Shown piece by piece: positions 6,102 to 45,901 of a stretch of 47,886 nucleotides of DNA (the stretch's first letter is position 1; each line of letters opens with the position of its first letter). The notes beneath the pieces are model-generated. The model saw only the letters and a program-made list of their open reading frames with translations, was not told the origin of the DNA and did no database searches. Source of the stretch: a virus; the IMG/VR virus record IMGVR_UViG_3300035390_000028, positions 1-47,886 of that record. One strand, 5' to 3'. Made by a program: the position numbers and the translations under genes.

Positions 6102-6731
6102 ATGGAACAAACAATAGAAAACAATCACAAGGTTTATCAAATTACTAACAATACAAATGGAAAAGTTTACATAGGTATAACAAAGAAAAATCCAGAACAA
6201 AGATGGAACAATGGAAAAGGATATTTTTACAACAAACATTTCTATAATTCAATAACTAAATTTGGTTGGGATAATTTTAAGAAGGAAGTTCTAAAAGAAA
6301 ACTTATCAGAAGAACAAGCAAAATTATATGAATCATTTCTAATTTCAACTCAAGATTCTACAAACCCAAAGAACGGATACAACAGAGCAACTTATTCAAG
6401 TTCAACAGGAGTTACAACTAATAGATTCAGAGTTCTTCCAGATGAAATTAAAAAGAAAATTTCAATTAATAGAACAGGAAAAACTCTATCACCTAAAAGG
6501 TATAAGAGATTAGTTAAAACTCACAAACAAATCAAAAGTTGTAGAGAAATTCAAAAGTTTAATAAGAACGGAATCCTATTAGACACTTACTGTTCAGTAA
6601 GCGAAGCAGCAAGAGCAAACTCATTAACAAAACAGAATGTATCTCAGGCAGCTCTTGGAAAACAATTCTCTGCTGGTGGATTTTTATTCAAGTTCGCAGA
6701 CTTAGAACTAAGTGAAAGGAACTACAAATAA
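6102..6731 (+). CDS. GIY-YIG homing endonuclease with NUMOD1 module
   Basis: A 209-residue probable site-specific DNA endonuclease. Residues 10-90 carry the GIY-YIG core (VYQITNNTNGKVYIGIT, then Arg33 in EQRWNN, and Glu near 75 in LYESFLIS). A basic linker follows. Residues 155-205 form a NUMOD1 helix-turn-helix (SVSEAARANSLTKQNVSQAA) related to those in the minus-strand gene at 3919-4809. Such enzymes are selfish homing elements. It is the first gene of a plus-strand operon and is preceded by GGATGG-type purine-rich sequence. Confidence 0.8.
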   Translation: MEQTIENNHKVYQITNNTNGKVYIGITKKNPEQRWNNGKGYFYNKHFYNSITKFGWDNFKKEVLKENLSEEQAKLYESFLISTQDSTNPKNGYNRATYSSSTGVTTNRFRVLPDEIKKKISINRTGKTLSPKRYKRLVKTHKQIKSCREIQKFNKNGILLDTYCSVSEAARANSLTKQNVSQAALGKQFSAGGFLFKFADLELSERNYK

Positions 6732-8591: not shown

Positions 8592-9530
8592 TTAATTTGA
8601 TGTTACTCCATCCTCTAAGTTTAAAACCTCTCCCATTAATAAATACGTATTAAAAATTAAAGCTTTTGCTTCTTCAAAAGTTACATCAGAATGAATACCA
8701 TTACAAACTCTTTCATATAAATTTGACAAATTTTGACGCAATCTATCTTTTCGAGTTTTACTTGTAATCTTTGTATCAATATAAACATTAATTCGATTTT
8801 TAGCATTTTTCTTTTGTAATTTTAGTTCATTTCCATTAATTGTAATGGTTTCATCACTTGGAGGAAAAATAAAATCAGCAAAAGTATCAATTATTCTTCT
8901 ACATGATGATAGAGCTTGGCTAATTGATTCTGAATCTTTTTCTTGTAATCTATCCATTACTGATGGTAACATTTCAATAACATCCTTTGCTTCTTTGGTA
9001 ATTGATTTATCAATATCTTGTTTATATTTTTCAAAAATAGAGTCGATAACCTTTTCATAAGTAATAGAATAGTAAACGTCAGTAATATAATCATGAAGAA
9101 TAGAAAAAACACTACCTTTAATACCAGATAAATGTGAAATTATTATTCCTATTTTGTTAATGCTATTAGTAACACCATAATTAACTAAAATTGCATCATT
9201 ACCACTTGAATCTGTAGTTCTATAACATAAAAGTTTTTTTTCATTTACTTTTATCAATGTTTCAATTTGTACTAATGATTCAAAATATCCACTTGAGTGT
9301 TCTTCATTAGTCCATCTTTTCGTTTGTTCCATATAATCTTCAGAAATAGAACCGTTATCATATCCTCGCAACTCATAATCAATCCATTCCTCAATATCAT
9401 TATCTTTCTCTGGTCTAAGACGTAATAACCTTTTTGTTTTTAATAATATTTTTTCTCCAGTTATTCTATCTAATTCAATATCAGCCAGAATTTCCTTTGT
9501 AAATTCTAATATTTCTTCTTGTTTTTTCAT
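8592..9530 (-). CDS. AbiTii-like abortive-infection protein
   Basis: A 312-residue protein. Residues 1-60 match my memory of the AbiTii N-terminal domain: a helix with EILADIELDRI, a kinase-like spacing of Leu/Lys, then EEWIDYELRGY. Residues 200-305 are helical with SCRRIIDTFADFIFPP and RVCNGIHSDVTFEEA, like the C-terminal domain in several abortive-infection proteins. The family is linked to phage exclusion. AGGAGAGAGAA precedes the ATG. It sits in a cassette with a membrane protein and two DUF285-repeat proteins inside the prophage, so it probably defends the lysogen against other phages. The domain call is by eye. Confidence 0.6.
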   Translation of the reverse strand: MKKQEEILEFTKEILADIELDRITGEKILLKTKRLLRLRPEKDNDIEEWIDYELRGYDNGSISEDYMEQTKRWTNEEHSSGYFESLVQIETLIKVNEKKLLCYRTTDSSGNDAILVNYGVTNSINKIGIIISHLSGIKGSVFSILHDYITDVYYSITYEKVIDSIFEKYKQDIDKSITKEAKDVIEMLPSVMDRLQEKDSESISQALSSCRRIIDTFADFIFPPSDETITINGNELKLQKKNAKNRINVYIDTKITSKTRKDRLRQNLSNLYERVCNGIHSDVTFEEAKALIFNTYLLMGEVLNLEDGVTSN

Positions 9531-10008: not shown

Positions 10009-11352
10009 CTATTTATCATCTTCGGGTTTGTTAGCCCAGTGAGTAATACTTCCATTAAATTCAGAATCAGTAAATATATCACTCATATCAGTTACATTAG
10101 AAACATCCCAGTGAGAAATATTTCTATTAAATTCAGAATAATTAAACATAGAATTCATATCATTTACTTTTGAAACATTCCAACGCGAAATATCTCCATT
10201 GAATTCAGATGACATAAACATAAAATTCATATTAGTAACTTGAGAAACATCCCAATCAGAAATATCACCATTAAATATTGTTGCAGCAAACATAAAACTC
10301 ATATCAATTACTTGAGAAACATCCCACTTAGAAATATCACTATTATTTTGAGAGTAACAAAATAGACAACTCATATCAGTAACTTTAGAAACATCCCATT
10401 TAGAAATATCTCCATTGAATTCAGAGGAATAGAACATACTATTCATATCAGTAACTTTAGAAACATCCCACTTAGAAATATCTCCATTAAATTCAGAGCT
10501 ATCGAACATACTATTCATATCAGTAACTTGAGAAACATCCCACTTAGAAATATCTCCATTAAATTCAGAGCTATCGAACATACTATTCATATCAGTAACT
10601 TTAGAAACATCCCACTCAGAAATATCTCCATTAAAAGAAGATTCTTGGAACAATAATTTCATATCTGATACATTAGAAACATCCCATTTAGAAATATCTC
10701 CATTGAAAGAAGATTCCCAAAACATATAACGCATATTAGTAACTTGAGAAACATCCCAATCAGAAATATCACCATTAAATATTGTTAAACAAAACACCCC
10801 AGAGATATCAATAACATTAGAAACATCCCATTTAGAAATATCCCCATTGAAAGGAGAATCACAAAATATCCAACTAATATCATTAACATTAGAAACATCC
10901 CATTTAGAAATATCTCCATTGAAAAGGGATTCATTAAACATTCCTTGCATATCAGTAACATTTGAAACATCCCATTTAGAAATATCTCCATTGAAAAAAG
11001 AAAAATAAAACATACTATTCATATCGGTAACATTTGAAACATTCCATTTAGAAATATCTCCATCGAATCTTGAACAAAAAAACATTTTATGCATATCGGT
11101 AACATTAGAAACATCCCAATAAGAAATATTTCCATAGAAATAAGATTGACTAAACAACTCACTCATATCAGTAATATTAGAAACATCAATATAATTTAAA
11201 TCAACTTTATTTCCATTTTCTTCAATAGCCTGAGATATATATGTTTGTAATTCTTCTTTTGTTTGTGGAACTACTCTACTAACCCCAAAGATGAAACTTG
11301 GTAATACAAAACCAAGTAATATTAAAATCAACAGTACTTTTTTCTTATTCAT
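10009..11352 (-). CDS. Secreted BspA-family (DUF285) repeat protein
   Basis: About 447 residues, starting at the ATG at 11352 because GGGAGAG precedes it. The N-terminus is a signal peptide (KKK then LLILILLGFVLPSFIFG). The rest is about 15 repeats of 24 residues with consensus FNGDISKWDVSNVTDM..MF, typical of BspA-type leucine-rich surface proteins. There is no sortase or membrane anchor at the C-terminus. Two repeats at 10467-10610 are identical at the DNA level except for one base, so the array changes length. It heads the minus-strand cassette with the Abi genes; a lysogenic-conversion adhesin is likely. Confidence 0.8.
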   Translation of the reverse strand: MNKKKVLLILILLGFVLPSFIFGVSRVVPQTKEELQTYISQAIEENGNKVDLNYIDVSNITDMSELFSQSYFYGNISYWDVSNVTDMHKMFFCSRFDGDISKWNVSNVTDMNSMFYFSFFNGDISKWDVSNVTDMQGMFNESLFNGDISKWDVSNVNDISWIFCDSPFNGDISKWDVSNVIDISGVFCLTIFNGDISDWDVSQVTNMRYMFWESSFNGDISKWDVSNVSDMKLLFQESSFNGDISEWDVSKVTDMNSMFDSSEFNGDISKWDVSQVTDMNSMFDSSEFNGDISKWDVSKVTDMNSMFYSSEFNGDISKWDVSKVTDMSCLFCYSQNNSDISKWDVSQVIDMSFMFAATIFNGDISDWDVSQVTNMNFMFMSSEFNGDISRWNVSKVNDMNSMFNYSEFNRNISHWDVSNVTDMSDIFTDSEFNGSITHWANKPEDDK

Positions 11353-11427
11353 TTTATCTCTCCCTAATTTATTCATAAATACTACAACTATTAGGTAACT
11401 AAGTCAAAAGAAATATCTCTCTTAACA

Positions 11428-31186: not shown

Positions 31187-31708
31187 ATGGCATGGAATGT
31201 AGGAGATGAAATCTCAGCATCAAAATTAAATAGTGAAAATTATGTTGCAAGTAATACGCAATACATAGGTAATAACGAAAATGATACAGAAACAATTGTT
31301 AGATACATGCACAAACCAGCCAGTTCAAATACGCATATAGCAAAATTGTATATGCATGCTTTGGATGGCTGGTTTGGAGTTGGTTCATATCACTATGTGA
31401 AATTATATCAAAGTAATTCTAGTGGAACAACTGGAACATTATTATTTTCAAAACAATGGTCTGGGCATCAAGATTATATAACCTATTATCTTGATGGAAG
31501 TTTGTTGCCAGCTTCGGGCTGGTATAAATTCACTATACAGCAAATTAACAAAGCTGGTGGCGAACATATGGATATTGCTGTTTATGGATATCCAATGAGT
31601 GCAATATCACAACATGAACTAGTTGAATATAGTTCAACTGGAAGTAGAATTCATGGTTCAGAATTAAGTGCTACAAAATTAAACGAGCATTATATAACAA
31701 CATTATAG
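31187..31708 (+). CDS. Tail-fibre-associated protein, possible carbohydrate binding
   Basis: A 173-residue protein. The start WNVGDEISASKLNSENY is the pattern found at the N-terminus of many small tail-fibre proteins. The rest is beta-rich with aromatic clusters (WFGVGSYHYVKLYQ, YYLDGSLLPASGWYKFTI), like a jelly-roll. The C-terminus repeats the SRIHGSELSATKLNEHY pattern. AAAGGAGAAAAGG precedes the ATG, 12 bases after the fibre stop. Confidence 0.55.
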   Translation: MAWNVGDEISASKLNSENYVASNTQYIGNNENDTETIVRYMHKPASSNTHIAKLYMHALDGWFGVGSYHYVKLYQSNSSGTTGTLLFSKQWSGHQDYITYYLDGSLLPASGWYKFTIQQINKAGGEHMDIAVYGYPMSAISQHELVEYSSTGSRIHGSELSATKLNEHYITTL

Positions 31709-31717
31709 GAGAAAAAA

Positions 31718-32038
31718 ATGTATTTATTAGTAAAAAAGGACGGAGAAGAAGTTCTTAATTTAGAACTAAGTAGAGTTTTGTTAAACGGAAACGAATTAAC
31801 ATTAGCAATTAAAGAACAAAATTATAAAACAATAGGATTAAATGTTAATTCTGTTTATACAATTTCTGTAGTAAACGAAACAGAAAATTTAAGTATTCCA
31901 GAGGAATACGGAATTTATAGAAGTTATACTTATTCAGTTAGCGAAACTGTATCATCTATAACAAACGAAGATGGGACTATAACAAAAACCACAATTCCGT
32001 TCGTTTCAGCTAACCAATTACTGTTCACAACTCTTTAG
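31718..32038 (+). CDS. Hypothetical protein of tail module
   Basis: A 106-residue small beta-type protein with no family I recognise. ATAGGAGAAAAAA precedes the ATG, 9 bases after the upstream stop. It is the last gene before the lysis unit and is probably a fibre chaperone or accessory. Confidence 0.5.
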   Translation: MYLLVKKDGEEVLNLELSRVLLNGNELTLAIKEQNYKTIGLNVNSVYTISVVNETENLSIPEEYGIYRSYTYSVSETVSSITNEDGTITKTTIPFVSANQLLFTTL

Positions 32039-32086: not shown

Positions 32087-32467
32087 ATGAATGAAAATGA
32101 TATAAAAATTGTAGAAAATGCAAAAGAAATAGAAAAGATAAACGAGAGGTTTAGTTTAATGATGGAGAGGTTAGAAGAGAAGATGGATGATTTAAATAAA
32201 AATATGAATACAGGCTTTTCTGACCTTCACAAAAAAATTTCTGGGTTAGAAGAGAAGTTCGATGCTGTTGATAAGAAAGTTGACAACATTGAAAAGGAAC
32301 TACCAACAAAAGTAGAAAAGATAGTGGCTTATGAATTTGTCAGCCACAAGAAAGATGGATACTACAAGTTTGCGAATTGGATAAAATTTTCATTGGTTGG
32401 AAGTTGTGTAATCGTAGTAGCTGGGAAATTAGTTTGGGAATTTATCTCAAAAACAATAGGATGTTAA
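32087..32467 (+). CDS. Coiled-coil single-TM protein of lysis cassette (XhlA-like)
   Basis: A 126-residue protein. Residues 1-85 form a coiled coil (heptads such as NINERFSLMMERLEEKMDDL) and 100-118 is one membrane segment (FSLVGSCVIVVAGKLVWEF). This layout matches XhlA/haemolysin-like lysis partners. AAAGGAAGATTTTG precedes the ATG. It is followed 1 base later by the holin candidate. Confidence 0.6.
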   Translation: MNENDIKIVENAKEIEKINERFSLMMERLEEKMDDLNKNMNTGFSDLHKKISGLEEKFDAVDKKVDNIEKELPTKVEKIVAYEFVSHKKDGYYKFANWIKFSLVGSCVIVVAGKLVWEFISKTIGC

Positions 32468-32468
32468 A

Positions 32469-32660
32469 ATGGCAAAAAATATAACACTGGCAATGATATT
32501 AATAATTTTCGGAGTTGGTCTTGTAGGAAGTTTTATTACAACTTTCAACATGATTGGATTCATAGCATTTATAAAAGGATTCTCCACAATGTATATTCCT
32601 CTTATAGCAAGTATTGGATTCAACTCTGGATTGAAAAAGATGAAGGAAAAAAAGGAGTGA
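32469..32660 (+). CDS. Candidate holin
   Basis: A 63-residue protein with two membrane segments (LAMILIIFGVGLVGSFI and FSTMYIPLIASIGF) and a strongly basic C-terminus, the usual form of class II holins. It lies between the XhlA-like gene and the spanin-like pair, so the cassette is holin plus spanins. Confidence 0.6.
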   Translation: MAKNITLAMILIIFGVGLVGSFITTFNMIGFIAFIKGFSTMYIPLIASIGFNSGLKKMKEKKE

Positions 32661-32662
32661 TA

Positions 32663-33031
32663 ATGAATGAATGGTTTAAAAAGAATTGGAAGTATCTTAC
32701 TGCTTTCTTGTCTGGTATTGTTGCCCTTATCGGCTTCAACAGAATTAGACTTCCTAAACAATCTCAGTCTGGAAATGAATACGATGGAAACAACGTGGAA
32801 CAACTTAGAGATACAGTTGGAAACACAGAACAGCAAGTTGAATCTATTAGACAGTCAAACGCTGAACTTACAAACTCAATCTCAGAAACAAGAGATACGG
32901 TTAGCGAACTTAGAGCTGACAGTGGAGACATTAACTCCACAAGTCGAGAGCTTGGAAACTCAATTAGTAGAATCCAATCTCTCATTGACGAAGAAAGAAA
33001 AAGAATTACTGAACTTGAGAAACTGGAATAA
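32663..33031 (+). CDS. Inner-membrane spanin-like protein (Rz-type)
   Basis: About 122 residues. I place the start at the ATG at 32663, 5 bases after AAAGGAG, rather than at an in-frame GTG at 32657 that overlaps the ribosome site. Residues 10-24 are a membrane anchor (YLTAFLSGIVALIGF); the rest is a long periplasmic coiled coil (VEQLRDTVGNTEQQVESI and similar). This is the architecture of i-spanins, which bridge to an outer-membrane partner and disrupt the outer membrane. It overlaps the +1-frame gene from 32667 to 33031. Confidence 0.55.
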   Translation: MNEWFKKNWKYLTAFLSGIVALIGFNRIRLPKQSQSGNEYDGNNVEQLRDTVGNTEQQVESIRQSNAELTNSISETRDTVSELRADSGDINSTSRELGNSISRIQSLIDEERKRITELEKLE

Positions 33032-33095
33032 TATACTTCTTGGTGGAGTACTAATTGGAGTCTCAGTTTTATCATTAATTGTACTAATTGATTAA
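32667..33095 (+). CDS. Overlapping +1-frame exported coiled-coil protein, probable second spanin
   Basis: A 142-residue protein. It starts four bases after the i-spanin start, in the +1 frame, using the same ribosome site at 9-base spacing. It has a signal peptide (LKRIGSILLLSCLVLLPLSA), a 90-residue coiled coil, and a C-terminal membrane segment (LLGGVLIGVSVLSLIVL). Cys15 in LLSC could be a lipobox, but hydrophobic residues continue after it, so I cannot say it is a lipoprotein. In Rz/Rz1 pairs the outer gene is nested in another frame; here the overlap is 365 bases, nearly the whole i-spanin gene, and both frames are open. Confidence 0.5.
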   Translation: MNGLKRIGSILLLSCLVLLPLSASTELDFLNNLSLEMNTMETTWNNLEIQLETQNSKLNLLDSQTLNLQTQSQKQEIRLANLELTVETLTPQVESLETQLVESNLSLTKKEKELLNLRNWNNILLGGVLIGVSVLSLIVLID

Positions 33096-33460: not shown

Positions 33461-33905
33461 TACAGATTTCATTCTTTGAAAAGCATAAATTGTTCAGTCC
33501 TTCGTAAGATTCCAACTTACTACTATGACCTCGGCTGACTACTAATCTTGCATACCTCATGGGCTTGTCTTTAGTTTTGGTCGATATTGCAGACTCTCAG
33601 ACACATACGATTAGTCCTCTCATGTTAAGTTTGATAGCTTCTTAATCTCATGTAGCCATTTGCTTTACTCAATATACTCTCAGAATGGACTTTATCAAAT
33701 TAAGCTAACTTATCCATATATTAAGCCTAAACAAATTTCTATACGTTGGCTCAAGACCTCGCCTCCAGCTTCCTTCACACGTAGCTTCACAGTAACGCAC
33801 TTGCTCTTGGCTAGCGATTATAACTACATCTTTCCAGTAGCTCCGAGTACACGCAGTGGGATTGCACCACCTAGTTATCAAACATGCATGACAACCAAAA
33901 AGTAA
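33461..33905 (-). other. GC-rich relic resembling part of a group II intron
   Basis: This block is clearly higher in GC than both neighbours and has no intact gene. On the minus strand it reads GGTGCAATCCCA, GTGTACTCGGAGC, GTGAAGGAAGCTGGAGGCG and later a short frame with RYARLVVSRGHSSK. Those strings resemble the RNA domain I and pre-maturase regions of bacterial group II introns as I remember them. There is no reverse-transcriptase gene, so it would be a truncated copy. I am not certain; a remnant of another mobile element is possible. Confidence 0.35.
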
Positions 33906-33951: not shown

Positions 33952-34539
33952 CTAAAAACAAGGAACAGTTGCGTCTTTTGAAAGTCCGTAACTATTAAAT
34001 AATCCATCTCTAAATTCTGATTTTTCCTGCTTTATGTACAATATGTAGTAATTACTATTGCTATTACTTTTCAATCTTACAAAAGGCAGGTTATTATCTT
34101 TTTCTTCATAATTAACATACAAATCACATGCTTCATCATATTCAATATTATGACGCTTAGAATATCTTCTAACTAATTTTTCTTTGTTGTCCTTTATCTG
34201 AACTCTAGAAAAATTAACAAATCCGATTTCTGAAGGCACATCTCTTATTTTTGTAATATGAATATAATCCAACAACTTTGATAATCTACTCGTTAAACCA
34301 ACTTTCTCAAATTGAATTTCTGATAGATAAAAGATTCTTATTTTATCACCTAAAGTAAAATTATCAAGACAATATTTAGGGAATGAAATAGCTACATTGG
34401 ATTCCCCTTTACATTTTAATTCTGAAAATATTTTATGCAATTCTTCATACACTTTACATAATAAAAAATCTGTACTAATTTCCTCAGAAGATATCAATGT
34501 AATTTCTTGGTAAAAATTAAACTTATTTTGAGACTTCAC
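33952..34539 (-). CDS. cas6f: Type I-F crRNA endonuclease Cas6f (Csy4)
   Basis: About 195 residues, starting at the GTG at 34539 because the GGGGAGG ribosome site lies 9 bases upstream; an in-frame GTG at 34548 is too close to it. It cleaves the repeat RNA and stays bound to the hairpin. EELHKIF holds the catalytic His (residue 35 from this start), followed by NVAISFPKY. The C-terminus YGLSKDATVPCF is the conserved Cas6f ending. It overlaps csy3 by 17 bases. Confidence 0.9.
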   Translation of the reverse strand: MKSQNKFNFYQEITLISSEEISTDFLLCKVYEELHKIFSELKCKGESNVAISFPKYCLDNFTLGDKIRIFYLSEIQFEKVGLTSRLSKLLDYIHITKIRDVPSEIGFVNFSRVQIKDNKEKLVRRYSKRHNIEYDEACDLYVNYEEKDNNLPFVRLKSNSNSNYYILYIKQEKSEFRDGLFNSYGLSKDATVPCF

Positions 34540-35548
34540 CAAAAACACCTCCCCTAATTATCATTGCGATTGAATAATTAGCTTCTTCGGTATTATTAAA
34601 TACAGAATTTCCGGTTGCTTTGTCAAATACAGTATAAAAATCTATTTTAGTTGCTGGACTTCTGTAAGCCCTTCCTAAGTTAGTAACAGAACCATAAGTT
34701 TCTATAGCAATTGGAGTATTTAATTCTTCATACTCATCAAACCAGGTATCAATTGTTCTAAGAGCATTACCAATTTTTTGAGAATGCATTCCAGCAACTC
34801 CATCGATAGAGAATAATATTTTACTTTTCTTACCTTTATTACTACTGCTACTGCTCTTATCAAGAACCAATTCTTCACTAGGATAAACATCTTGAGCTTC
34901 GCCCATTTTTACATATGCATCAATTTTTAAATTTAAGAAATCACTATCACTAGCAAGAGCAGATGCAATCATTTTACCTAGTTCTTTAACATCCTTATTA
35001 TCAGAATCAAAATTCCTAATACTAAAGTCAAAAGCGTTAAAGATCCATTCTTTTCCTTTTCTCTCTTCTTTTACATGAATTTCAATAGCATCAGTTCCTA
35101 CTCTATTTCTCCACAAGAATCGTCCGTTAGCAATATTAATTGCATATCTTAAACCAAGTTCATCAAAACCTATTTCAGATTGGAATGTATCAATTAATTT
35201 TTCATAACGTTTTAGAAAAGCTTTATCATTACAAGATGAAGGAGTTTTAATATTTCCTAAAACCTTCAAAGTAAAAAACATATGCAATGTATCGAAACCG
35301 ATAGGTAAGTTACAAGCATCTACTATCTGTAAATTTGCATTTTGTATCATCTTATCAAGTTTTGCAGGATCGGTTGCATCACCTTTTTTCAATCTATTTG
35401 AAATTGTACCCTTAATTGATTTAGCAATTATTTTTAGAGGAACGTTATTTTCAATTTTATTTCCCCATTTTGAAGCGAACATAATACCATTGGATGGTAC
35501 CAATTTTTTTTCATAAGCTAATACTGATGGTAAAGTAATTTTTGCCAT
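34523..35548 (-). CDS. cas7f: Type I-F Cas7f (Csy3), crRNA backbone subunit
   Basis: A 341-residue protein, the size of characterised Csy3 (about 342). It polymerises along the spacer part of crRNA. Recognisable segments are LPSVLAYEKKLVPSNGIMFA at the start, FTLKVLGNIKTPSSCNDKAF, and LRYAINIANGRFLWRNRVGT. It lies between csy2 (12-base gap) and csy4 (overlap), the standard order. Confidence 0.92.
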   Translation of the reverse strand: MAKITLPSVLAYEKKLVPSNGIMFASKWGNKIENNVPLKIIAKSIKGTISNRLKKGDATDPAKLDKMIQNANLQIVDACNLPIGFDTLHMFFTLKVLGNIKTPSSCNDKAFLKRYEKLIDTFQSEIGFDELGLRYAINIANGRFLWRNRVGTDAIEIHVKEERKGKEWIFNAFDFSIRNFDSDNKDVKELGKMIASALASDSDFLNLKIDAYVKMGEAQDVYPSEELVLDKSSSSSNKGKKSKILFSIDGVAGMHSQKIGNALRTIDTWFDEYEELNTPIAIETYGSVTNLGRAYRSPATKIDFYTVFDKATGNSVFNNTEEANYSIAMIIRGGVFGEVSK

Positions 35549-35560
35549 TTTATTTCTCCT

Positions 35561-36439
35561 CTATTTACAAATATATAAATTATTTATTTCGTCATATTCA
35601 TATTGCCATAACATTTGATCTATAGAATCTAATCTGTAGGGCATTACAAACTCACCTAAAGTAACTATTGCTTCAGCAAATCTATGTAGATAATCATTAT
35701 TACGTTGATTCTCAACATGCTTTAACTCATCAAGACCTTGATATCCAACTGAAATTGGAACAAACCAGCCATTACTAAGTTTCTTGCTTCTACTCCATTC
35801 AACTACTTCCTTTTCATCAATTTCGGCCTTTGTATTTACCTGAATAAATGATATTACAGAATCAAAAGCATTGATTGAATTTTGTATCATGTCGTTTTCA
35901 ATTAAAGATTTTCGATTTATTATAGAAAAGCCCTTGTTCAAACTTCTTAAGAATTTTTTATCATCATTTTCCGAATTATCATCAATTCTTTTTAAGAATA
36001 CATTCTTGTAAGAAATAATATTTCCACTAGCAATTTTCATCCTAGAATGTAATAAAGTCTCAACATCTTCAATAAATTGAGACTCTTTTAATTTTCTAAC
36101 ACCATCATATTCAATCAACAATGAAACTTCTAAATTACATAGAGGTTCCTCTATAAATGAATCGGTTTTCCCTGTTCCTAATAATGGATGTCGTTTTTCA
36201 ATAACTGACAAGTTTGAATAAAACAACTGAGAATCTTTATACACTCTTAAATCAAAATCATTGCAAATTATACCAATTTTATTTAACTTCAAATCAGTAT
36301 ATTCATCACTTAATTCCCTCTGTAATCTATGCATAAAGCCTAAAAACGACGTAATAGCAGGAAATCCAACAGTATATGGTGATGAAAAGGCATTTGCCTC
36401 TTCGATTTTTACATTTGTAATTGTTAAATATTTTTTCAT
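35561..36439 (-). CDS. cas5f: Type I-F Cas5f (Csy2)
   Basis: A 292-residue subunit that binds the 5' crRNA handle together with Cas8f. Conserved segments are YTVGFPAITSFLGFMHRLQR, RHPLLGTGKTDSFIEEP, and the C-terminal FAEAIVTLGEFVMPYRLD. Its ATG overlaps the csy1 stop (ATGA), a translational coupling. Confidence 0.9.
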   Translation of the reverse strand: MKKYLTITNVKIEEANAFSSPYTVGFPAITSFLGFMHRLQRELSDEYTDLKLNKIGIICNDFDLRVYKDSQLFYSNLSVIEKRHPLLGTGKTDSFIEEPLCNLEVSLLIEYDGVRKLKESQFIEDVETLLHSRMKIASGNIISYKNVFLKRIDDNSENDDKKFLRSLNKGFSIINRKSLIENDMIQNSINAFDSVISFIQVNTKAEIDEKEVVEWSRSKKLSNGWFVPISVGYQGLDELKHVENQRNNDYLHRFAEAIVTLGEFVMPYRLDSIDQMLWQYEYDEINNLYICK

Positions 36440-37815
36440 GAAAGAACCTCCATATTTTCGTTTAACAATTCATTAATAAAGGTAATTTCTAAATCACCCA
36501 ATATATAATGGTCTTCAAATTTAAATTTCTTAAAACTAAAAACAATCCATCTTGCAATCATAGAAATAAACTGAGATATATCTGTAGACAAATCTCTTTC
36601 ATCTTCATATTTTGAATCTAATATTTTTTTCTGATATTCCGGCAAACTGGCGTATCTTTCACCTTCACTCCAACCTGGTTCAACTGCTCTTATTGATTGA
36701 ACCTTTTCAATTATTTTATCAAATATATTAAAAATAACTGAATCACGATAATCACGTATATTTTGATTATTATAATTTATACTAAATACATCGTGTAGAC
36801 TTTTAAAATTACCACGGTAATTATTAAAATATAGACTCTCCCTAAAAAAATCATAATGAGGTAATCTTACATTACGTTTTTTTAAGATTGGAGGAAGTGA
36901 AGAAAACATATAAGCAGTACTATTAATTGAATTTAAATATGATATATTTTGTTTCTTAGTTCCACCAAATCCAATTTCAACAACATCATAAATATCATGA
37001 ATTTCTACATCTGAATATTTGTTTTTCTTTTTTGCCTCTCTTACTAATTTTGCTTCATCAGAAAATTTATTATCAAGAATGTTTTTTTTCAAATAGAATA
37101 ATTGATCAGATGGGTATAAAATTGATAGCAAATGATAATCTTCATAGCCAATTGGAAAAAAAACCTGTTTCAATTTATTATCTGTTTGAGTAATATTTTC
37201 ACTATGTTTAATGCTTAATATTGCTTCTTTAATCTCACTATAAGATAATCTTAGATGTGCAAAATTTGATTTTGCACACTCATCATCCATCTTAAAATGC
37301 TCTAAAAGAGTTTTATCATCTTCCAATTTTAGATAAAGAAATTTAACATATCCTAATAATGCAGCATTAACCGAAACATCTTCTTGAACTGGTCCACAAT
37401 TGCCTGATCTAATGTAACCGTCATTTCTAGCTTCATTAGTTGCCCATAAGTTAATTGGTGCACTAATTTTCGAATTAGTATATTTGCAACAATGTGAGCA
37501 GAAAATAATTTTTTCATTTAGTGTTTTAAGTATTTTAGGTAAATATTCATTTATAAAATAAATCAAGTTTTTTTCAATTGTAATATCAACAATATCTTTA
37601 TTCTCTAAATCTTCAACTTTTAAGTTTACACCTAACCAAGTCTTTACTGAATCTATCTTAGAATCTTGATTAATCTTAATTGATAATTCAGTAGTAATCT
37701 TTTTTTCTGAATCATTTTTTAAAATTTTCTCTTTTTCTTTAATATAACTATTTGTACTTTTATTTATTTCATTTCTTGCTTTATCAACAAAATATTCTCT
37801 TAAATTATTATCCAA
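36436..37815 (-). CDS. cas8f: Type I-F Cas8f (Csy1), PAM-recognising large subunit
   Basis: A 459-residue subunit that reads the PAM and opens the target. The start is a TTG at 37815, 5 bases after AGGAGGT, which lies in the end of cas2-3. The segment LWATNEARNDGYIRSGNCGPVQED and the C-terminal ARWIVFSFKKFKF match Csy1. A CSHCC motif at about residue 105 could bind zinc. Confidence 0.85.
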   Translation of the reverse strand: MDNNLREYFVDKARNEINKSTNSYIKEKEKILKNDSEKKITTELSIKINQDSKIDSVKTWLGVNLKVEDLENKDIVDITIEKNLIYFINEYLPKILKTLNEKIIFCSHCCKYTNSKISAPINLWATNEARNDGYIRSGNCGPVQEDVSVNAALLGYVKFLYLKLEDDKTLLEHFKMDDECAKSNFAHLRLSYSEIKEAILSIKHSENITQTDNKLKQVFFPIGYEDYHLLSILYPSDQLFYLKKNILDNKFSDEAKLVREAKKKNKYSDVEIHDIYDVVEIGFGGTKKQNISYLNSINSTAYMFSSLPPILKKRNVRLPHYDFFRESLYFNNYRGNFKSLHDVFSINYNNQNIRDYRDSVIFNIFDKIIEKVQSIRAVEPGWSEGERYASLPEYQKKILDSKYEDERDLSTDISQFISMIARWIVFSFKKFKFEDHYILGDLEITFINELLNENMEVLS

Positions 37816-37818
37816 ATT

Positions 37819-40800
37819 TTACCTCCTATTTAATCCTAATCTTACTGAGTAAGAAAGAGCCTTTTTCTCCAATAAATAATTGGGGACTTCAATGAAGCTA
37901 TACACTCTTTCAACTTTATCACTACTCAAATTCATTCTTTCACAATAACTATCAATGACCTTTCTGTAATCAAGCTCTAGCCACATCTTTTCAGTTTTTT
38001 CATTTTCTATAAATTCAATATTATAAGTTTCATTCACAGCAATAAAATGCCCATAATCATCTCTTTCATAGAAGTTAAATTCATCTTCAGTATAGAAACA
38101 ATAAATCCTTTTATTATCTACCCCGTTTCTAAATCGTGCATATATCATAGGCAAACCTGTTAAAGCCCAAAAACCTTTATAGTATCCATTTAAATTCTCA
38201 GGACCAAATCCATCACCTTCATTCAGTAAAGAATATTTAATTGATTCATGCTCAATATTTATTAAACTATTATTATGATTGAATTCACTATTTTGCTTCA
38301 ATCTTGGTATAGAATTAATACTTTTATTCAATTCCTTATTATCAATAATCTCATACATATTATGTGATGATAATTTATAGTCTTTTCCTTGTTCGTAACC
38401 CGGCTTATTAAAAACAGCATTATCATCATTTTTTAAAGAATTCAAATTATATTGTAATATTGCAATATTAGAAGATTTGCATATTTTTTTTCTATGACGT
38501 AAAACTCTTCCTGCTAATTGTATTATTGATCTTACAGAAGATGGTTCAACAATTGCCCAATCAAAGTCATGATCTCTACCCACCTCTTCAATTGGGGATG
38601 AAATAATCATGAAAATAATGTTATCTTTTTTCGATCTATCAATGTGAGACCTTATAGTATTATCAGTAAAACAAAAGGTATCTACTTCATCCTTTCGGTA
38701 AAGAACCTTATCAAGATAATTTTCAATTTCATTTCTAACAAGAAGTATATTTCTACTGTGATAGCATAGATAAAATATGTCTGTATCATCACAATTATAA
38801 TTATTTAGACTTCCTGCAAAATCAATACAATTATCAATATGTGCAAATCTAACTAAACCAAATGAAATACATTTGTTACTTTTAGCATCAATTACATTAT
38901 TGGATTTATGAAGTACTATTGAAGATTCAATCATTTTATATAAAACTTCTTCTTTAGAATCATCTAGACTAAAATCAATTAAAGTTCCTTTTCTCTTTAT
39001 TCCATTTTTAGCCTCTTCATCTTGCAAAGATACAATTCTTTTATTAATGAACTTTTGATATTTATCCTCAAACACTTTAAGATCTTTAGGTTCTTTAAAT
39101 ACAGAATTAGAAAATTCATCTACAAAGCAAGTAATTATGGGACTAAGGCTTTTATTATATGCATTTTTAACAGCCCAACCTTCTGAATAAGCTTTATAAT
39201 AACCTTTTGAAATACTAGGAGTAATTGTTGCTGAAGATATCAATACCCGTCGTCCCAACATACCAGCTAGATATACCAAATGAGCTATTGCAATCAAATC
39301 ATCAAATACAAAATCGTCTATCTCATCAATAATTAAATCACTTGTTGAAAGTCTCAAAAAAGGTACAATCCACCTCCCACCAAGATAATTTTCACTTGCA
39401 GGAATTAGATGATCTATTGTGCTTACACACAGTGGAGCACAGAGGAATTTCATATCTTTATCTGATTTAATAACAGTAGATAAAGCTACATCTGAAATAA
39501 TATTACCATAATCTATATCATCAAATGATGATAAATCAAAAACGGATTCATTCTTTTCTAAATTATGTAATTTATCAATGGCACTTGATCCTATTACAAC
39601 CGCTAAATCTGTATTATCAATATGCATTTTATTACGATACATATCACCTGTTTGTAAAGTCAAACTTCTTAACCCCAAAGCTATATTAAACCTTACATCT
39701 TCTTCTTTACTAGATATTGCATTTAATATTTTTGCATTTGCAAAAGTTTTACCAGTACCTGTTGAAGCTAAATTAACGCAAAAAAAGCCATTTTCTTTCT
39801 TGTCTTCATCCTCAATATTCTTTAACTTTGCAGCAATTTTATCTTGCCAATAAAACTTAGAATCTTTGTTAGATTTTTTAGTGAGGGCTTTAGCATTTTC
39901 CAAACCGAGTAGTTGTGAGGAACTCTTATTGACTGTATAAATTGCCTGTAGAGCTTCTTTTTCTACTCCTAATAAGTGTTCTTCTAAAAATTGTTTTACT
40001 TTACCTTTATGCTCTCTATCGCTACAAGTATTTGCATATAATTTTAGCTTGCATGTATATTTTTCATCTTTATCTTTTGAAGAAAAATAATAATCACCCA
40101 GCATTAAATACAATCTAGCTTTTTTTACAAGCAGAAATAGCACTCTCTCATCATCTATAGATTCAAATAAATCTAATTGATTTAATAATTTATTACTCCA
40201 TTTTTTTACTTCTTTTGTCCATCGATCAGAAAAATTTATGCCGTTAGAAAATGAATTAATATATTCTTTATCATTTGTTTTATGATAACCCCATCCATCA
40301 TCAATTAGTTGGAATAATTCCTTCCAATTATCAATACCTTCACCTAGGTATTCTTTATCTTTTTTTTCTGATTTTATAAAAGGCATTCTATGATGAGATA
40401 TTATCAAATATGAAATAATAAGAACTAAATTTGAAAATTGAGATTTATCACTTTTGATATTAATACCTTTTTCTTTTAATAAAGAAGACTGTTTTATTAA
40501 CACCTCATCAAATTCAGGTGATGCAAAATCAGATAACCATGGTTTATCATCGTTATTTTTAATAAACGATTGAAACATAAACATTGATATATATTCATGT
40601 CTTATGATATCGGATTTCTTTTTATTCTTTAACATACCCTGAAATCCATCAGAAGCTTTTCCTAAATCATGAAATAATGCAGAAAGAGCAACAATACATT
40701 TAATTAATGGTAGATAATGGTCTTTATTTTCCCACTCATTATGTAAAAGATTTTTAGAGGTAGTAGCAATCGGTACAATTCCTTCTACTGTATATTTAAG

Positions 40801-41037
40801 CTTACTACCAACAATCCATAATAATTCAGATTCTTTTATTTTATGAAGCCAATGACAGGCCACAGAAGTATTCTTGGAAGCAGTCTTGCATAGATGAGCC
40901 TTTACAACCTTAAGGCCCTCTAAAGTGATGTTAGTTTTCCATGTTGTGGGACCTATTCTATTAGCATACATATCCAATACTTGAGCAGTCTTTAGTCTAG
41001 ATTTTTTTTCACTTAAAGAAATAAATACTACAATCAT
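37819..41037 (-). CDS. cas2-3: Cas2-Cas3 fusion, helicase-nuclease of type I-F
   Basis: A 1072-residue fusion specific to type I-F: a Cas2 domain at residues 1-90 (integration), an HD nuclease (LFHDLGKA, His123-Asp124, later SHHRMP), and an SF2 helicase (Walker A STGTGKT at 425-431, DEID at 571-574, SSAT at 601-604, and QLAGRVLRHRK). It degrades targeted DNA and takes part in spacer acquisition with Cas1. All key motifs are intact. It starts 5 bases after cas1 and ends 3 bases before csy1. Confidence 0.95.
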   Translation of the reverse strand: MIVVFISLSEKKSRLKTAQVLDMYANRIGPTTWKTNITLEGLKVVKAHLCKTASKNTSVACHWLHKIKESELLWIVGSKLKYTVEGIVPIATTSKNLLHNEWENKDHYLPLIKCIVALSALFHDLGKASDGFQGMLKNKKKSDIIRHEYISMFMFQSFIKNNDDKPWLSDFASPEFDEVLIKQSSLLKEKGINIKSDKSQFSNLVLIISYLIISHHRMPFIKSEKKDKEYLGEGIDNWKELFQLIDDGWGYHKTNDKEYINSFSNGINFSDRWTKEVKKWSNKLLNQLDLFESIDDERVLFLLVKKARLYLMLGDYYFSSKDKDEKYTCKLKLYANTCSDREHKGKVKQFLEEHLLGVEKEALQAIYTVNKSSSQLLGLENAKALTKKSNKDSKFYWQDKIAAKLKNIEDEDKKENGFFCVNLASTGTGKTFANAKILNAISSKEEDVRFNIALGLRSLTLQTGDMYRNKMHIDNTDLAVVIGSSAIDKLHNLEKNESVFDLSSFDDIDYGNIISDVALSTVIKSDKDMKFLCAPLCVSTIDHLIPASENYLGGRWIVPFLRLSTSDLIIDEIDDFVFDDLIAIAHLVYLAGMLGRRVLISSATITPSISKGYYKAYSEGWAVKNAYNKSLSPIITCFVDEFSNSVFKEPKDLKVFEDKYQKFINKRIVSLQDEEAKNGIKRKGTLIDFSLDDSKEEVLYKMIESSIVLHKSNNVIDAKSNKCISFGLVRFAHIDNCIDFAGSLNNYNCDDTDIFYLCYHSRNILLVRNEIENYLDKVLYRKDEVDTFCFTDNTIRSHIDRSKKDNIIFMIISSPIEEVGRDHDFDWAIVEPSSVRSIIQLAGRVLRHRKKICKSSNIAILQYNLNSLKNDDNAVFNKPGYEQGKDYKLSSHNMYEIIDNKELNKSINSIPRLKQNSEFNHNNSLINIEHESIKYSLLNEGDGFGPENLNGYYKGFWALTGLPMIYARFRNGVDNKRIYCFYTEDEFNFYERDDYGHFIAVNETYNIEFIENEKTEKMWLELDYRKVIDSYCERMNLSSDKVERVYSFIEVPNYLLEKKALSYSVRLGLNRR

Positions 41038-41042
41038 AAATA

Positions 41043-42011
41043 CTACTTCCTTATTTGAGAAAATTCTTCTGCAATCAGTTGAACTGAATCAAACATGAAG
41101 TCTAAAACTTTGTAATCAGTAAACTTTTTAATACATTCACTTCGAAATAGTTCATCTTCAATAAAATCATCATAAGTACTAAATGCAAGGGGAAGAACAA
41201 CTGCATCTTTTATTAAATCAGCTACATCAAACACAAGAGCCCCTCTTCTTGTTTTTCCATGCATCAATGCAAAAGCAGGAGGAATTCCTAATGCCCATAA
41301 AGATAGAGAAGCCAACCCATATGCTAAATAGTTTCCATAATTCAAATTTTGATTTATCCTATCATTATTACTTCTATCACGTGAAAAATCTTTTATTTTA
41401 TTATGAATACATGCTATCCTATATAAAGATTTAGTAAATTTTGCTTCAGAAAGAAGTAAAGAATTAACATCACTTGCACTTGCTATAGACTTTCTAAAGA
41501 TTCTAATGATTTTTTCAACTTCAATAGAATCATTTTCAAAACCACATTTTCTAAACAAGTTATCTTTAGAATAAACTTTATCAATAAAATCTAAACGAAG
41601 ATATTGAAATTTCTTGGCAGCTAGTAGTCTAATTTCATTATCGTACCAGAATGAAACCCATTGCTGTAAAAACTGAGTTGGTCTATATTCATTTTTCGAA
41701 CTAACCCACTCTATATCTGTACCAGCAATTAAAGGGGTACCATTGCTACCAGAAAAACCTAGCATAACTCCTGCAGATGATAGATATCTTACTGCAGCTT
41801 GTGTAATAGATGTACCTGTACCAAGCAGAATTACTGTGGTATTTGCTATTGGTATATTATAGTAAAAGAACTTATTTTTTACTTGAGTTAGATATGTAAC
41901 CCTACCATCTTTAACCAATATTCTGCATTTTTCTAAGTAATAGATATTTGTTCTTTTCGAATAAAGTATTGCTTTTAAATCTTTTGATTGTAGCTGTTCT
42001 TCATAATTCAT
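41043..42011 (-). CDS. cas1: Type I-F Cas1 integrase
   Basis: A 322-residue protein that catalyses spacer integration at the leader-proximal repeat. Conserved LGTGTSITQAAVRYLSSAGV, then LSLWALGIPPAFALMHGKTRRGALVFDVADLIKDAVVLPLAF, which holds the His and Asp of the metal site. It is the first gene of the cas operon. The array is upstream and transcribed toward it. Confidence 0.95.
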   Translation of the reverse strand: MNYEEQLQSKDLKAILYSKRTNIYYLEKCRILVKDGRVTYLTQVKNKFFYYNIPIANTTVILLGTGTSITQAAVRYLSSAGVMLGFSGSNGTPLIAGTDIEWVSSKNEYRPTQFLQQWVSFWYDNEIRLLAAKKFQYLRLDFIDKVYSKDNLFRKCGFENDSIEVEKIIRIFRKSIASASDVNSLLLSEAKFTKSLYRIACIHNKIKDFSRDRSNNDRINQNLNYGNYLAYGLASLSLWALGIPPAFALMHGKTRRGALVFDVADLIKDAVVLPLAFSTYDDFIEDELFRSECIKKFTDYKVLDFMFDSVQLIAEEFSQIRK

Positions 42012-42386: not shown

Positions 42387-45300
42387 TGTCTAAGTTGCCT
42401 ATTCGGCAGATAACTTATAATGGACGATTGGGAAGAATTCATAAGCTCTTTAAGCTGCCTATTCGGCAGATAACTATCTTGGCATTTCATTTTTCCCAAA
42501 TTAGTATCTCTAACCTGCCTATTCGGCAGATAACGGTTTATCCTTGGGCTACGTGTTAACGCTGAGTCTCAAAGCTGCCTATTCAGCAGATAACTTATGT
42601 TCTGATGATTACGGGTGGGACAATGATCTCTAAGCTGCCTAATCGGCAGATAACTAGATAGTAGAAAAAAATGGAATTTTGGAAAATCTCTAAGCTGCCT
42701 ATTCGGCAGATAACCAATTAAAATGTATAGTGAGGATATTTCACGATCTCTAAGCTGCCTATTCGGCAGATAACTTGTAGATGGTGAACTAGATTTAACT
42801 TTAAAATCTCTAAGCTGCCTATTCGGCAGATAACATATAAATATTTTTTTATCTATATAATCTTATTTCTCTAAGCTGCCTATTCGGCAGATAAGGTGCT
42901 TCCATCTCTGCTAATGCAAATTCAGCTTCTCTAAGCTGCCTATTCGGCAGATAACTTCTGGAGCTCTCCAAGTCTTTTAAGTCCTGCTCTCTAAGCTGCC
43001 TATCCGGCAGATAACCTAAGTATCTCGGTGGTCATAGTGATGTTATTTCTCTAAGCTGCCTATCCGGCAGATAACATTGGGACGCTATCGTCCTTGGTGC
43101 ATTGGCTTCTCTAAGCTGCCTATCCGGCAGATAACACTTACTCCAGGAAAAAAAGGGTAACTATCATTCTCTAAGCTGCCTATCCGGCAGATAACCGCCC
43201 GTAACCTCAATTATTTGCTTGCCTTTTTCTCTAAGCTGCCTATCCGGCAGATAACTAATTCCCTTGCTTCTATAGGGTGTGTCTTAGTCTCTAAGCTGCC
43301 TATCCGGCAGATAACCTGTGGAAATCTTAGAGATACATTCGATTACTTCTCTAAGCTGCCTATCCGGCAGATAACATATTCCATATCTTGCAGTTGATAG
43401 ACAAGTTTCTCTAAGCTGCCTATCCGGCAGATAACCAATTGTATCTCAGATTATTAAACTACATTCATCTCTAAGCTGCCTATCCGGCAGATAACGATAC
43501 TACTTTAAATCTTGATTTTACTTATGATCTCTAAGCTGCCTATCCGGCAGATAACATGTAGGTAATGATCCTTATTTTGGTGCAGATTCTCTAAGCTGCC
43601 TATCCGGCAGATAACTTAACATTCATAAACCCTTTGCGAACGTGCACTCTCTAAGCTGCCTATCCGGCAGATAACTGGGAACGGGGGACGCATATACGGT
43701 TTTTTTGGTCTCTAAGCTGCCTATCCGGCAGATAACATCCTAAAACTGTTAATGATAGAATCATTGGTTCTCTAAGCTGCCTATCCGGCAGATAACTTTT
43801 TAAAAGCTAAAGGTTATCCAATTTCTATTCTCTAAGCTGCCTATCCGGCAGATAACCAATTAAAGATGATGTTATGCTCGATTTTCAATCTCTAAGCTGC
43901 CTATCCGGCAGATAACTATTATGGATTCATTGGACTTTGTTTTCAATTTCTCTAAGCTGCCTATCCGGCAGATAACACACACCCCACTACTAGCTTTTTT
44001 ATTTCAAACTCTCTAAGCTGCCTATCCGGCAGATAACAGGCTTACTAAGTGTAAGTTTAAAGAAAGATTTCTCTAAGCTGCCTATCCGGCAGATAACTGT
44101 CAATAATGCCACGTTCTGCATACCAACAGTCTCTAAGCTGCCTATCCGGCAGATAACACTAATAGACCATAATTAAGGAGACCTTAAATTCTCTAAGCTG
44201 CCTATCCGGCAGATAACATTTACGAGATACTTTCGATTATTGGCATCTATCTCGAAGCTGCCTATCCGGCAGATAACATTGGATCAGGTGGAAAAGTCAC
44301 TTTTGTAAATCTCTAAGCTGCCTATCCGGCAGATAACATGGCTCGAAAGAAATGCAAGGGCAGGGGTTATCTCTAAGCTGCCTATCCGGCAGATAACTTT
44401 TACTATCAATTAATGAGAATGATTTAAAATCTCTAAGCTGCCTATCCGGCAGATAACAAGACGTTTGTAATACTTCCGAGATAATAACTTCTCTAAGCTG
44501 CCTATCCGGCAGATAACGTGTCCTCTTTTGGACACTATTTTTTGTTTAATCTCTAAGCTGCCTATCCGGCAGATAACTTCTGTTTAACTAAATAAACACC
44601 CCCCCTAAATCTCTAAGCTGCCTATCCGGCAGATAACGATACAGTTGATTTCTTTGAACCTTGGGAGCGGTCTCTAAGCTGCCTATCCGGCAGATAACCA
44701 ACATTTGCTTGACATTTCTCATAGCGACTATCTCTAAGCTGCCTATCCGGCAGATAACTTATCTCCGGGAACCATTTCTTCACACATGGTATCTCTAAGC
44801 TGCCTATCCGGCAGATAACTACCAATTGCGGTACTTCTTGGATTCCAACGATCTCTAAGCTGCCTATCCGGCAGATAACTTGTTAACATTGTTTGTCCTT
44901 GTGCTCCGCACTCTCTAAGCTGCCTATCCGGCAGATAACACCATGTTCATGTAATGTATCAATATCTTCAATCTCTAAGCTGCCTATCCGGCAGATAACA
45001 AGACGTTTGTAATACTTCTGAGATAATAACTTCTCTAAGCTGCCTATCCGGCAGATAACCAATATTCCCAACAACTTAATTTGCCTCATATTCTCTAAGC
45101 TGCCTATCCGGCAGATAACGATAAGCCAGAAACCGCATTAACTCCGTGGAGTTCTCTAAGCTGCCTATCCGGCAGATAACATATAAGGCGTATACAGAGC
45201 CTAAACTTGAATTCTCTAAGCTGCCTATCCGGCAGATAACTATGATGATTTTATGAATTATAAAGAATTTGATCTCTAAGCTGCCTATCCGGCAGATAAC

Positions 45301-45901
45301 CCTCATGTATGGAGTAAAGTTTCCGTCAAGATTCTCTAAGCTGCCTATCCGGCAGATAACGCTCGTTTGTTTATATCTTCCCTCATATAAGGTCTCTAAG
45401 CTGCCTATCCGGCAGATAACCCAGGTATTATCACATATAGTTATAAGATTATTCTCTAAGCTGCCTATCCGGCAGATAACAACCTGGGGATTTAATAAAC
45501 ATGACTTTGATTTCTCTAAGCTGCCTATCCGGCAGATAACATAGGTTCATATTGTTTCCTTGTGCTCCGCACTCTCTAAGCTGCCTATCCGGCAGATAAC
45601 ACTTGTAAATGAATACAACTCATTAAGAGTTTTCTCTAAGCTGCCTATCCGGCAGATAACTCATACCACGTTGAATAAGCCAAGCTTGAAAATCTCTAAG
45701 CTGCCTATCCGGCAGATAACGATTACAAGTTATAAAGGACTCATTTAACAGATCTCTAAGCTGCCTATCCGGCAGATAACTTACCACCCTTCTCACTCAT
45801 GTCAAAAGGAATGTCTCTAAGCTGCCTATCCGGCAGATAACTAAATTATGAATAGGATCTAACGCAACGTAGTTCTCTAAGCTGCCTATCCGGCAGATAA
45901 C
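42387..45901 (-). CRISPR. Type I-F CRISPR array, 59 repeats and 58 spacers
   Basis: The 28-base repeat, read on the minus strand, has stem CTGCC-GGATA-GGCAG and ends with handle CTTAGAGA, like I-F repeats. Fifty-one spacers are 32 bases and seven are 33 (numbers 8, 22, 27, 38, 40, 46 and 57 counted from the low-coordinate end). Transcription is on the minus strand: repeat orientation, degenerate repeats at the low-coordinate end, and PAM placement of two spacer matches all agree. Repeats 1-10 carry TATTCGG (or worse) in plus-strand reading; repeats 11-59 carry TATCCGG. Repeat 9 ends with G and repeat 32 has TCTCGAAG. Open frames through this region are artefacts of the repeat. Confidence 0.98.

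Follow-up and report, generated by a model that had tools for sequence, protein, structure and literature searches.

The strict definition of a two-component spanin calls for a lipoprotein o-spanin and for periplasmic cysteines (PMC6139136). In lambda Rz/Rz1 and the other embedded or overlapped spanins (SpaninDB, PMC6139136), the lysis region closes with two envelope proteins encoded in overlapping frames, while unimolecular spanins of the T1 gp11 type unite an N-terminal export signal and a C-terminal transmembrane domain (TMD) in one protein. In the survey of diderm phages by Kongari et al., about 13% lacked a recognisable spanin, and these authors considered a type I protein with a C-terminal TMD as a possible i-spanin and an outer-membrane protein as a possible o-spanin (PMC6139136). 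For spirochaetes, the spanin literature yielded only standard embedded spanin predictions, in transposable prophages of Leptospira. As for the initiation of two frames at one site, AUGUG sites have been shown to start both frames in E. coli (PMC9841429), and a passage of the same source describes Thermus rnpA-rpmH, in which one GGAGG is followed by AUGGAUG; the bacterial cases are otherwise short peptides and the in-frame holin starts of lambda (PMC9841429).

The locus studied here lies in a stretch of viral DNA of 47,886 nucleotides (positions 1–47,886 of IMG/VR virus record IMGVR_UViG_3300035390_000028; hereafter the window). Like the Rz/Rz1-type pairs, it closes a probable lysis region with overlapping frames for two predicted envelope proteins, the second (ORF2) in the +1 frame, as in the spanins of lambda, T7 and P2, and the first (ORF1) with the predicted N-terminal transmembrane (TM) segment and coiled coil of an i-spanin-like protein. 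In contrast to those pairs, in which the second gene starts at ~0.4–0.5 of the length of the first, the two starts of the window almost coincide; ORF1 is devoid of cysteine, and the second protein is no lipoprotein, being predicted to end in an inner-membrane helix in the window and in a β-type outer-membrane anchor in the relatives described below. ORF2 resembles the T1 gp11-type spanins in combining an N-terminal export signal with a C-terminal TMD, but it has no lipobox, is predicted to be all-helical rather than β-rich, and has an overlapping partner gene. With Thermus rnpA-rpmH and the AUGUG and GUGUG sites of E. coli the locus shares one Shine-Dalgarno sequence (SD) and two starts in different frames, 4 nt apart in the window and 2 nt in the relatives; those sites, however, serve cellular ribosome and RNase P genes or short peptides, whereas the products here are predicted exported or membrane proteins. 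The dual-start holin/antiholin gene S of lambda likewise has two nearby lysis-gene starts and two products, but its starts are in frame and its products differ by 2 residues, whereas the frames of the window differ.

Results

One Shine-Dalgarno sequence precedes two start codons in different frames

At the late-operon end of the window, ATGAATGAATGG is preceded by AAGGAG at 32652–32657 (region 32640–32679, ATGAAGGAAAAAAAGGAGTGATAATGAATGAATGGTTTAA). Two ATGs four bases apart, at 32663 and 32667, open ORF1 and, in the +1 frame relative to it, ORF2, which end at the stop codons 33029–33031 and 33093–33095, respectively (Table 1). This is a single-SD ambiguous start site, with one SD and two adjacent start codons in different frames. 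An earlier sequence-only reading of the window had proposed that one ribosome site is common to both ATGs and that the two frames overlap by 365 bases; both proposals hold, since AAGGAG lies 5 and 9 nt ahead of the two starts and the recomputed coordinates give 365 nt. The same reading called the arrangement extreme in comparison with Rz/Rz1, which agrees with a second start at ~0.01 of the first-gene length here and at 0.4–0.5 in ~70% of embedded o-spanins (PMC6139136). The twin start on one SD does have a precedent, Thermus rnpA-rpmH (AUGGAUG) having already been described (PMC9841429). The upstream 63-aa gene ends in a TGA that falls after the SD and before the first ATG, and translational coupling by termination-reinitiation into both starts is therefore possible as well. 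A GTG at 32657 could also serve ORF1 as a start, the third at this site, but it overlaps the SD.

The twin-start pair closes the late operon after holin-like membrane genes, consistent with the lysis context assigned to it by the sequence-only reading. No significant similarity was detected between the 173-aa and 106-aa genes and their positional counterparts in the spirochaete prophage L237, and no endolysin was recognised among the genes scanned.

Table 1 Features of the twin-start locus and the genes preceding it (positions in the window)
Feature	Position	Strand	Description	Basis
173-aa gene	31187–31708	+	follows the long tail protein and lacks a TM segment; opens the putative late/lysis end	no convincing Pfam/PHROG match
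106-aa gene	31718–32038	+	no assigned function; holds the place of a 97-aa gene in L237	position
126-aa gene	32087–32467	+	coiled coil and predicted C-terminal TM (residues 95–113), holin-accessory-like	hydropathy
63-aa gene	32469–32660	+	small membrane protein, holin candidate; stop TGA 32658–32660	hydropathy
AAGGAG	32652–32657	+	Shine-Dalgarno sequence common to both starts, spaced 5 nt from the first ATG and 9 nt from the second	sequence
ORF1	32663–33031	+	122 aa; N-terminal TM at ~codons 12–26 (32696–32740), coiled coil predicted periplasmic, i-spanin-like topology, no cysteine	hydropathy, heptads
Dual-coding overlap	32667–33031	+	365 nt; ORF1 TM segment and ORF2 signal peptide from one T-rich stretch	
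ORF2	32667–33095	+	142 aa, +1 relative to ORF1; signal peptide followed by long helix/coiled coil and C-terminal TM, predicted type I topology	hydropathy, AlphaFold, heptads
ORF2 C-terminal TM helix	33033–33089	+	residues 123–141, just past the ORF1 stop	hydropathy, AlphaFold

A twin-start scan of 2.78 Mb (starts ≤14 nt apart, an SD, two hydrophobic N-termini and both products at least 70 aa long) matched only the window phage, the related spirochaete cassettes and one TTG/TTG family. The TTG/TTG pair, 203 + 80 aa with hydrophobic N-termini in both products, lies on the minus strand of four viral contigs (L050, L051, L053 and L056), is unrelated to the window pair, and is possibly antisense noise.

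Analogous twin-start cassettes are present in prophages of Spirochaetia

Major-capsid matches in Spirochaetia genomes led to the prophages L233–L238 and L240. The adaptor p176, p130, the major tail protein p134 and the tape measure are syntenic in L233–L238, with ~26–40% amino-acid identity to the window; L240 shares p130, p134 and the tape measure with the window in order, and p176 was not found there. In the prophages whose lysis end was readable (L233–L237 and L240) we observed, on the same strand, a pair of ORFs whose starts nearly coincide, one of 72–99 aa with a TM segment (TM-ORF) and one of 180–200 aa with a signal peptide (signal-peptide ORF), and a profile search with the TM-ORF yielded eight more cassettes (L248–L251, L253, L254, L256 and L257). 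Leaving out L234, which is nearly identical to L233, 13 diverged cassettes in Spirochaetia genomes were counted. Relative to the TM-ORF, the signal-peptide ORF has +1 phase in 14 of 14 cases, window included, and no stop interrupts either frame in any of the 13 cassettes; the start offsets range from −8 to +31 nt, commonly in the form AUGUG with starts 2 nt apart. Upstream of the cassettes are genes that encode membrane proteins, one of which weakly matched a holin family in PHROG (E = 0.0083). The twin-start layout looks like a conserved design, not an accident.

The order of the two starts varies among the cassettes. The TM-ORF starts 19–31 nt ahead of the signal-peptide ORF in L251, L253, L254, L256 and L257; the signal-peptide ORF starts first in the other subgroup, so that the start order is flipped relative to these five and the phase is kept.

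Selection was tested in two groups of relatives (6 and 5 sequences) by codon bootstrap with 4,000 replicates each. Synonymous divergence in the signal-peptide frame was 0.36 and 0.31 inside the overlap, compared with 0.72 and 0.66 over the remainder of the gene, and that in the TM frame was 0.49 and 0.38 in the overlap, compared with 0.72 and 0.61 in the upstream gene. The bootstraps never reversed the reduction of either frame (P < 1/4,000 in both groups). Since synonymous divergence is reduced in both frames inside the overlap, both frames are coding and under selection in the relatives. This analogous pair thereby passes the check named in the sequence-only reading, purifying selection on the two frames.

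Searches for the relatives' signal-peptide protein in viral contigs and phages, and for their TM-ORF in phages, returned no match. When compared by hhalign, ORF2 and the relatives' signal-peptide proteins scored a probability of 0.5%, with no homology found, and ORF1 scored a homology probability of 20% against the relatives' TM family, a value that does not establish homology. With no sequence homology demonstrated, the link between the window and these relatives therefore lies in how the genes are ordered, in the phase and start geometry of the pair and in the layout of its products.

Predicted products of the two frames

ORF1 begins with a basic stretch, followed by a hydrophobic segment at ~residues 12–26 and then by a coiled coil. 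Its N-terminal hydrophobic segment has a KD13 maximum of 2.21, and a stricter 19-residue window at KD 1.6 made no TM call. The predicted topology, an N-terminal TMD with a periplasmic coiled-coil domain, fits that of an i-spanin. Two segments stand out in the hydropathy profile of ORF2, at residues 7–25 and 123–141 (the latter with KD 2.88), and its single-sequence AlphaFold model is one helix from residue 4 to 141 (mean pLDDT 89), suggesting a type I inner-membrane protein. The descriptions given in the sequence-only reading, an i-spanin-like protein from the first ATG and a protein with signal peptide, coiled coil and C-terminal membrane segment from the second, are thus in keeping with the hydropathy of both products, with the AlphaFold helix of ORF2 and with the heptads reported below.

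ORF1 contains no cysteine and ORF2 a single one, in the signal segment; periplasmic cysteines of the kind that would form the intermolecular disulfides of a two-component spanin are not predicted for either protein. A lipobox, scored by a PROSITE-like pattern than which spirochaetal rules may be looser, was found neither in ORF1 and ORF2, nor in 26 counterparts, nor in any plus-strand ORF ≥25 aa long between window positions 31000 and 34000, and no outer-membrane anchor was identifiable in ORF2. Pfam, PHROG and NCBIfam searches with ORF1 and ORF2 returned coiled-coil cross-matches only.

For the signal-peptide protein of the relatives, an alignment-based AlphaFold model of the L236 protein (mean pLDDT 71.6) starts with a signal helix and a disordered linker, continues with a helix at residues 83–128 and closes with four strands at 131–196, which end next to an aromatic C-terminus. 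The relevant Foldseek match in the PDB was 2lme, the membrane anchor of YadA (probability 0.82, E = 0.12), and the matches in BFVD included several phage proteins named YadA-like anchor (probability 0.98–1.00, E ~5e-3). VIA-align scored Hia 2gr8 at Z 4.9 (rmsd 2.6 over 56) and 2lme at Z 4.4, with similar Z for unrelated rows, and a weak Pfam match to OMP_b-brl (E = 0.0065) was below the cut-off. Together these hints, moderate but in agreement with one another, point to a YadA-like outer-membrane β anchor at the end of the relatives' protein, and the model has the helix and the four strands expected of one. The protein resembles YadA-like trimeric autotransporter anchors in this succession and in its aromatic C-terminus, but differs from them in its short stalk, in the lack of a head and in being overlapped by a TM gene. 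A YadA-like anchor domain is absent from ORF2 of the window, which is predicted to end in a helix.

A possible spanin-like role with non-standard anchors

By the strict definition the window pair is not a two-component spanin, nor is it a unimolecular spanin by lipobox. The 365-nt overlap in +1 phase has the overlapping alternative-frame architecture of such pairs, and no candidate for the o-spanin, an outer-membrane lipoprotein with a lipobox, emerged from the scan. The identification as an Rz/Rz1-type spanin pair in the sequence-only reading must therefore change: ORF2 has no lipobox, there is no lipoprotein ORF nearby in any plus-strand frame, and ORF2 is predicted to be a type I inner-membrane protein. 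Dual coding stands, the lysis context probably does as well, and the layout extends to spirochaete prophages.

The pair may work like a spanin all the same. Our preferred reading, with a probability of roughly 0.55, is that the dual-coding pair, with both proteins made from one site, acts in outer-membrane disruption as spanins do, with non-standard anchors. A ribosome, brought in by the single SD or by coupling to the stop just upstream, would start at either ATG 32663 or ATG 32667, and both proteins would be produced from one site in a fixed ratio. ORF1 would insert N-in into the inner membrane with its coiled coil in the periplasm, and ORF2, exported by its signal peptide, would form a long periplasmic helix held by the C-terminal membrane helix. 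Following holin and endolysin action, the two coiled coils would serve the outer-membrane disruption step that is the job of a spanin pair. In the relatives, one protein would sit in the inner membrane and the other be anchored in the outer membrane, amounting to spanin logic with no lipoprotein. We infer in this the translation of both frames, the topology, the lysis role and a common ancestry of the arrangement in the window and the relatives. More tentatively, spirochaete prophages may carry a conserved new outer-membrane disruption module: a twin-start dual-coding gene with two products, a coiled-coil or helical protein of the inner membrane and a helical partner that is exported and held, instead of by a lipid, by a YadA-like β domain in the relatives or by a C-terminal inner-membrane helix in the window, the two being made at a ratio fixed by ambiguous initiation at one ribosome site.

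Both frames could instead be translated into proteins that do not disrupt the outer membrane, such as a holin/antiholin-type regulator, a superinfection-exclusion factor or a surface protein, with the relatives' YadA-like protein as an adhesin. The membrane proteins encoded upstream, the adhesin names of the YadA-anchor phage proteins in BFVD and the lack of an evident outer-membrane link for ORF2 would suit this, yet the place after holin-like membrane genes at the late-operon end, in the window and in L233–L237, the pairing of an inner-membrane TM protein with an exported coiled-coil protein, and the shortness of proteins that have no adhesin head make it unlikely. It is less probable still that ORF2 alone is a unimolecular spanin that carries a lipid at Cys15, is directed to the outer membrane and is held in the inner membrane by its C-terminal TM segment, with ORF1 as partner or regulator. 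An N-terminal signal, a predicted C-terminal TMD and the lack of periplasmic cysteine match the layout of such spanins, and Cys15 is preceded by LLLS. Spirochaetal lipoboxes are loose. Against this, charged residues inside the required neutral stretch make the putative lipoylation signal fail the PROSITE-type pattern, hydrophobic residues go on past Cys15, the T1-family proteins are β-rich where ORF2 is modelled as one helix, and the relatives are also devoid of a lipobox.

The window locus and its spirochaete counterparts are concrete candidates for the outer-membrane and type I replacements envisaged by Kongari et al. They also constitute a natural set of sites with two full-length proteins per ribosome site, starts 2–31 nt apart and, in the relatives, selection on both frames. 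Further pairs may have escaped notice, since gene callers have a bias against overlaps of this kind.

Coding statistics support both frames of the window

With ORF1 fixed and its codons redrawn according to phage usage, none of 20,000 resamplings had an open +1 frame (mean 10.2 stops), and ORF1 was likewise never open in 20,000 resamplings with ORF2 fixed (mean 10.9 stops). A conservative within-gene permutation, which keeps the codons present, gave P = 0.17 for an open ORF2 given ORF1 and P = 0.0005 for an open ORF1 given ORF2. The heptad a/d excess was 0.60 in ORF1 and 0.59 in ORF2 (each P < 1/20,000 against residue shuffles), and 0.18 in the third frame (P = 0.42). Heptads in ORF2 exceed what a fixed ORF1 forces (P < 0.0002 by codon usage, 0.0092 by permutation), as do those in ORF1 with ORF2 fixed (P = 0.0008 and 0.002, respectively). 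Because a spectral heptad test was significant for ORF1 only (ORF2, P = 0.225), the heptad claim for ORF2 is that of the a/d test by itself. N-terminal hydrophobicity is partly passed between the frames (mean 1.6–1.75 in the resampled frame); a T-rich stretch is hydrophobic in both, and a TM segment and a signal peptide could therefore share the same DNA with nearly coinciding starts. Codon usage in the overlap is atypical for the phage in ORF2 (LLR −0.40 per codon) and scores +0.10 in ORF1.

These statistics and the selection in the analogous relatives support the twin frames as genuine overlapping coding frames, as the sequence-only reading had held. That only one frame is a gene and the other open by accident of composition is very improbable: ORF2 does stay open in 17% of within-gene permutations, its codon usage is atypical and no diverged homologue of the exact window pair was found, but usage-based resampling left no open frame in either direction, the heptads of both ORFs, absent in the third frame, exceed mutual forcing, and the same phase and arrangement recur in 13 relatives with both frames under selection.

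Close relatives, host and ends of the element

The phage has one close relative only, the sister contig IMGVR_UViG_3300035389_000048, which is identical over window positions 1–33894 save one SNP at 33741. Searches for close homologues of ORF1 and ORF2 gave this near-identical contig alone among viral contigs and none among INPHARED phages, and ORF2 had no match in genome contigs. The head and tail synteny and the YesM/AraC-like flank favour a spirochaete as host. A host among the Campylobacterota, to which the nearest Csy3 matches (Sulfurovum) belong, was considered and rejected: for ORF2, the matches in 397 Campylobacteria genomes were no more than coiled-coil noise, the flanking kinase had no match at E ≤ 1e-60 in 298 genomes, and relatives of the major capsid protein (MCP) occurred in three genomes of one family, with no detectable syntenic genes or pair. 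Nothing closer than 37% was found in a phylum-wide MCP search, and the MCP matches L008 and L011 came from unrelated sequences.

Beyond window 33894/33895 (L002:6228/6229), the sister contig carries YesM/AraC-like two-component genes instead of a cas operon. Each junction lies directly next to an intrinsic-terminator-like hairpin, and the same end of the element thus occurs at two sites. The right end of the shared element matches Group II intron domains (RF02001 and RF01998, window 33497–33796, minus strand), with no adjoining reverse-transcriptase ORF seen. Beside the prophage end of the window lie the type I-F genes csy4, csy3, csy2, csy1, cas3 and cas1 (33952–42011, minus strand) and a 59-repeat CRISPR array (42387–45901), whose spacers showed no match to the prophage beyond chance. 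Between the integrase and the terminase, the window encodes an AbiTii-like defence protein (8592–9530, minus strand), a DUF285/PARCEL repeat surface protein (10009–11376, minus strand) and a homing-endonuclease-like gene (6102–6731, plus strand).
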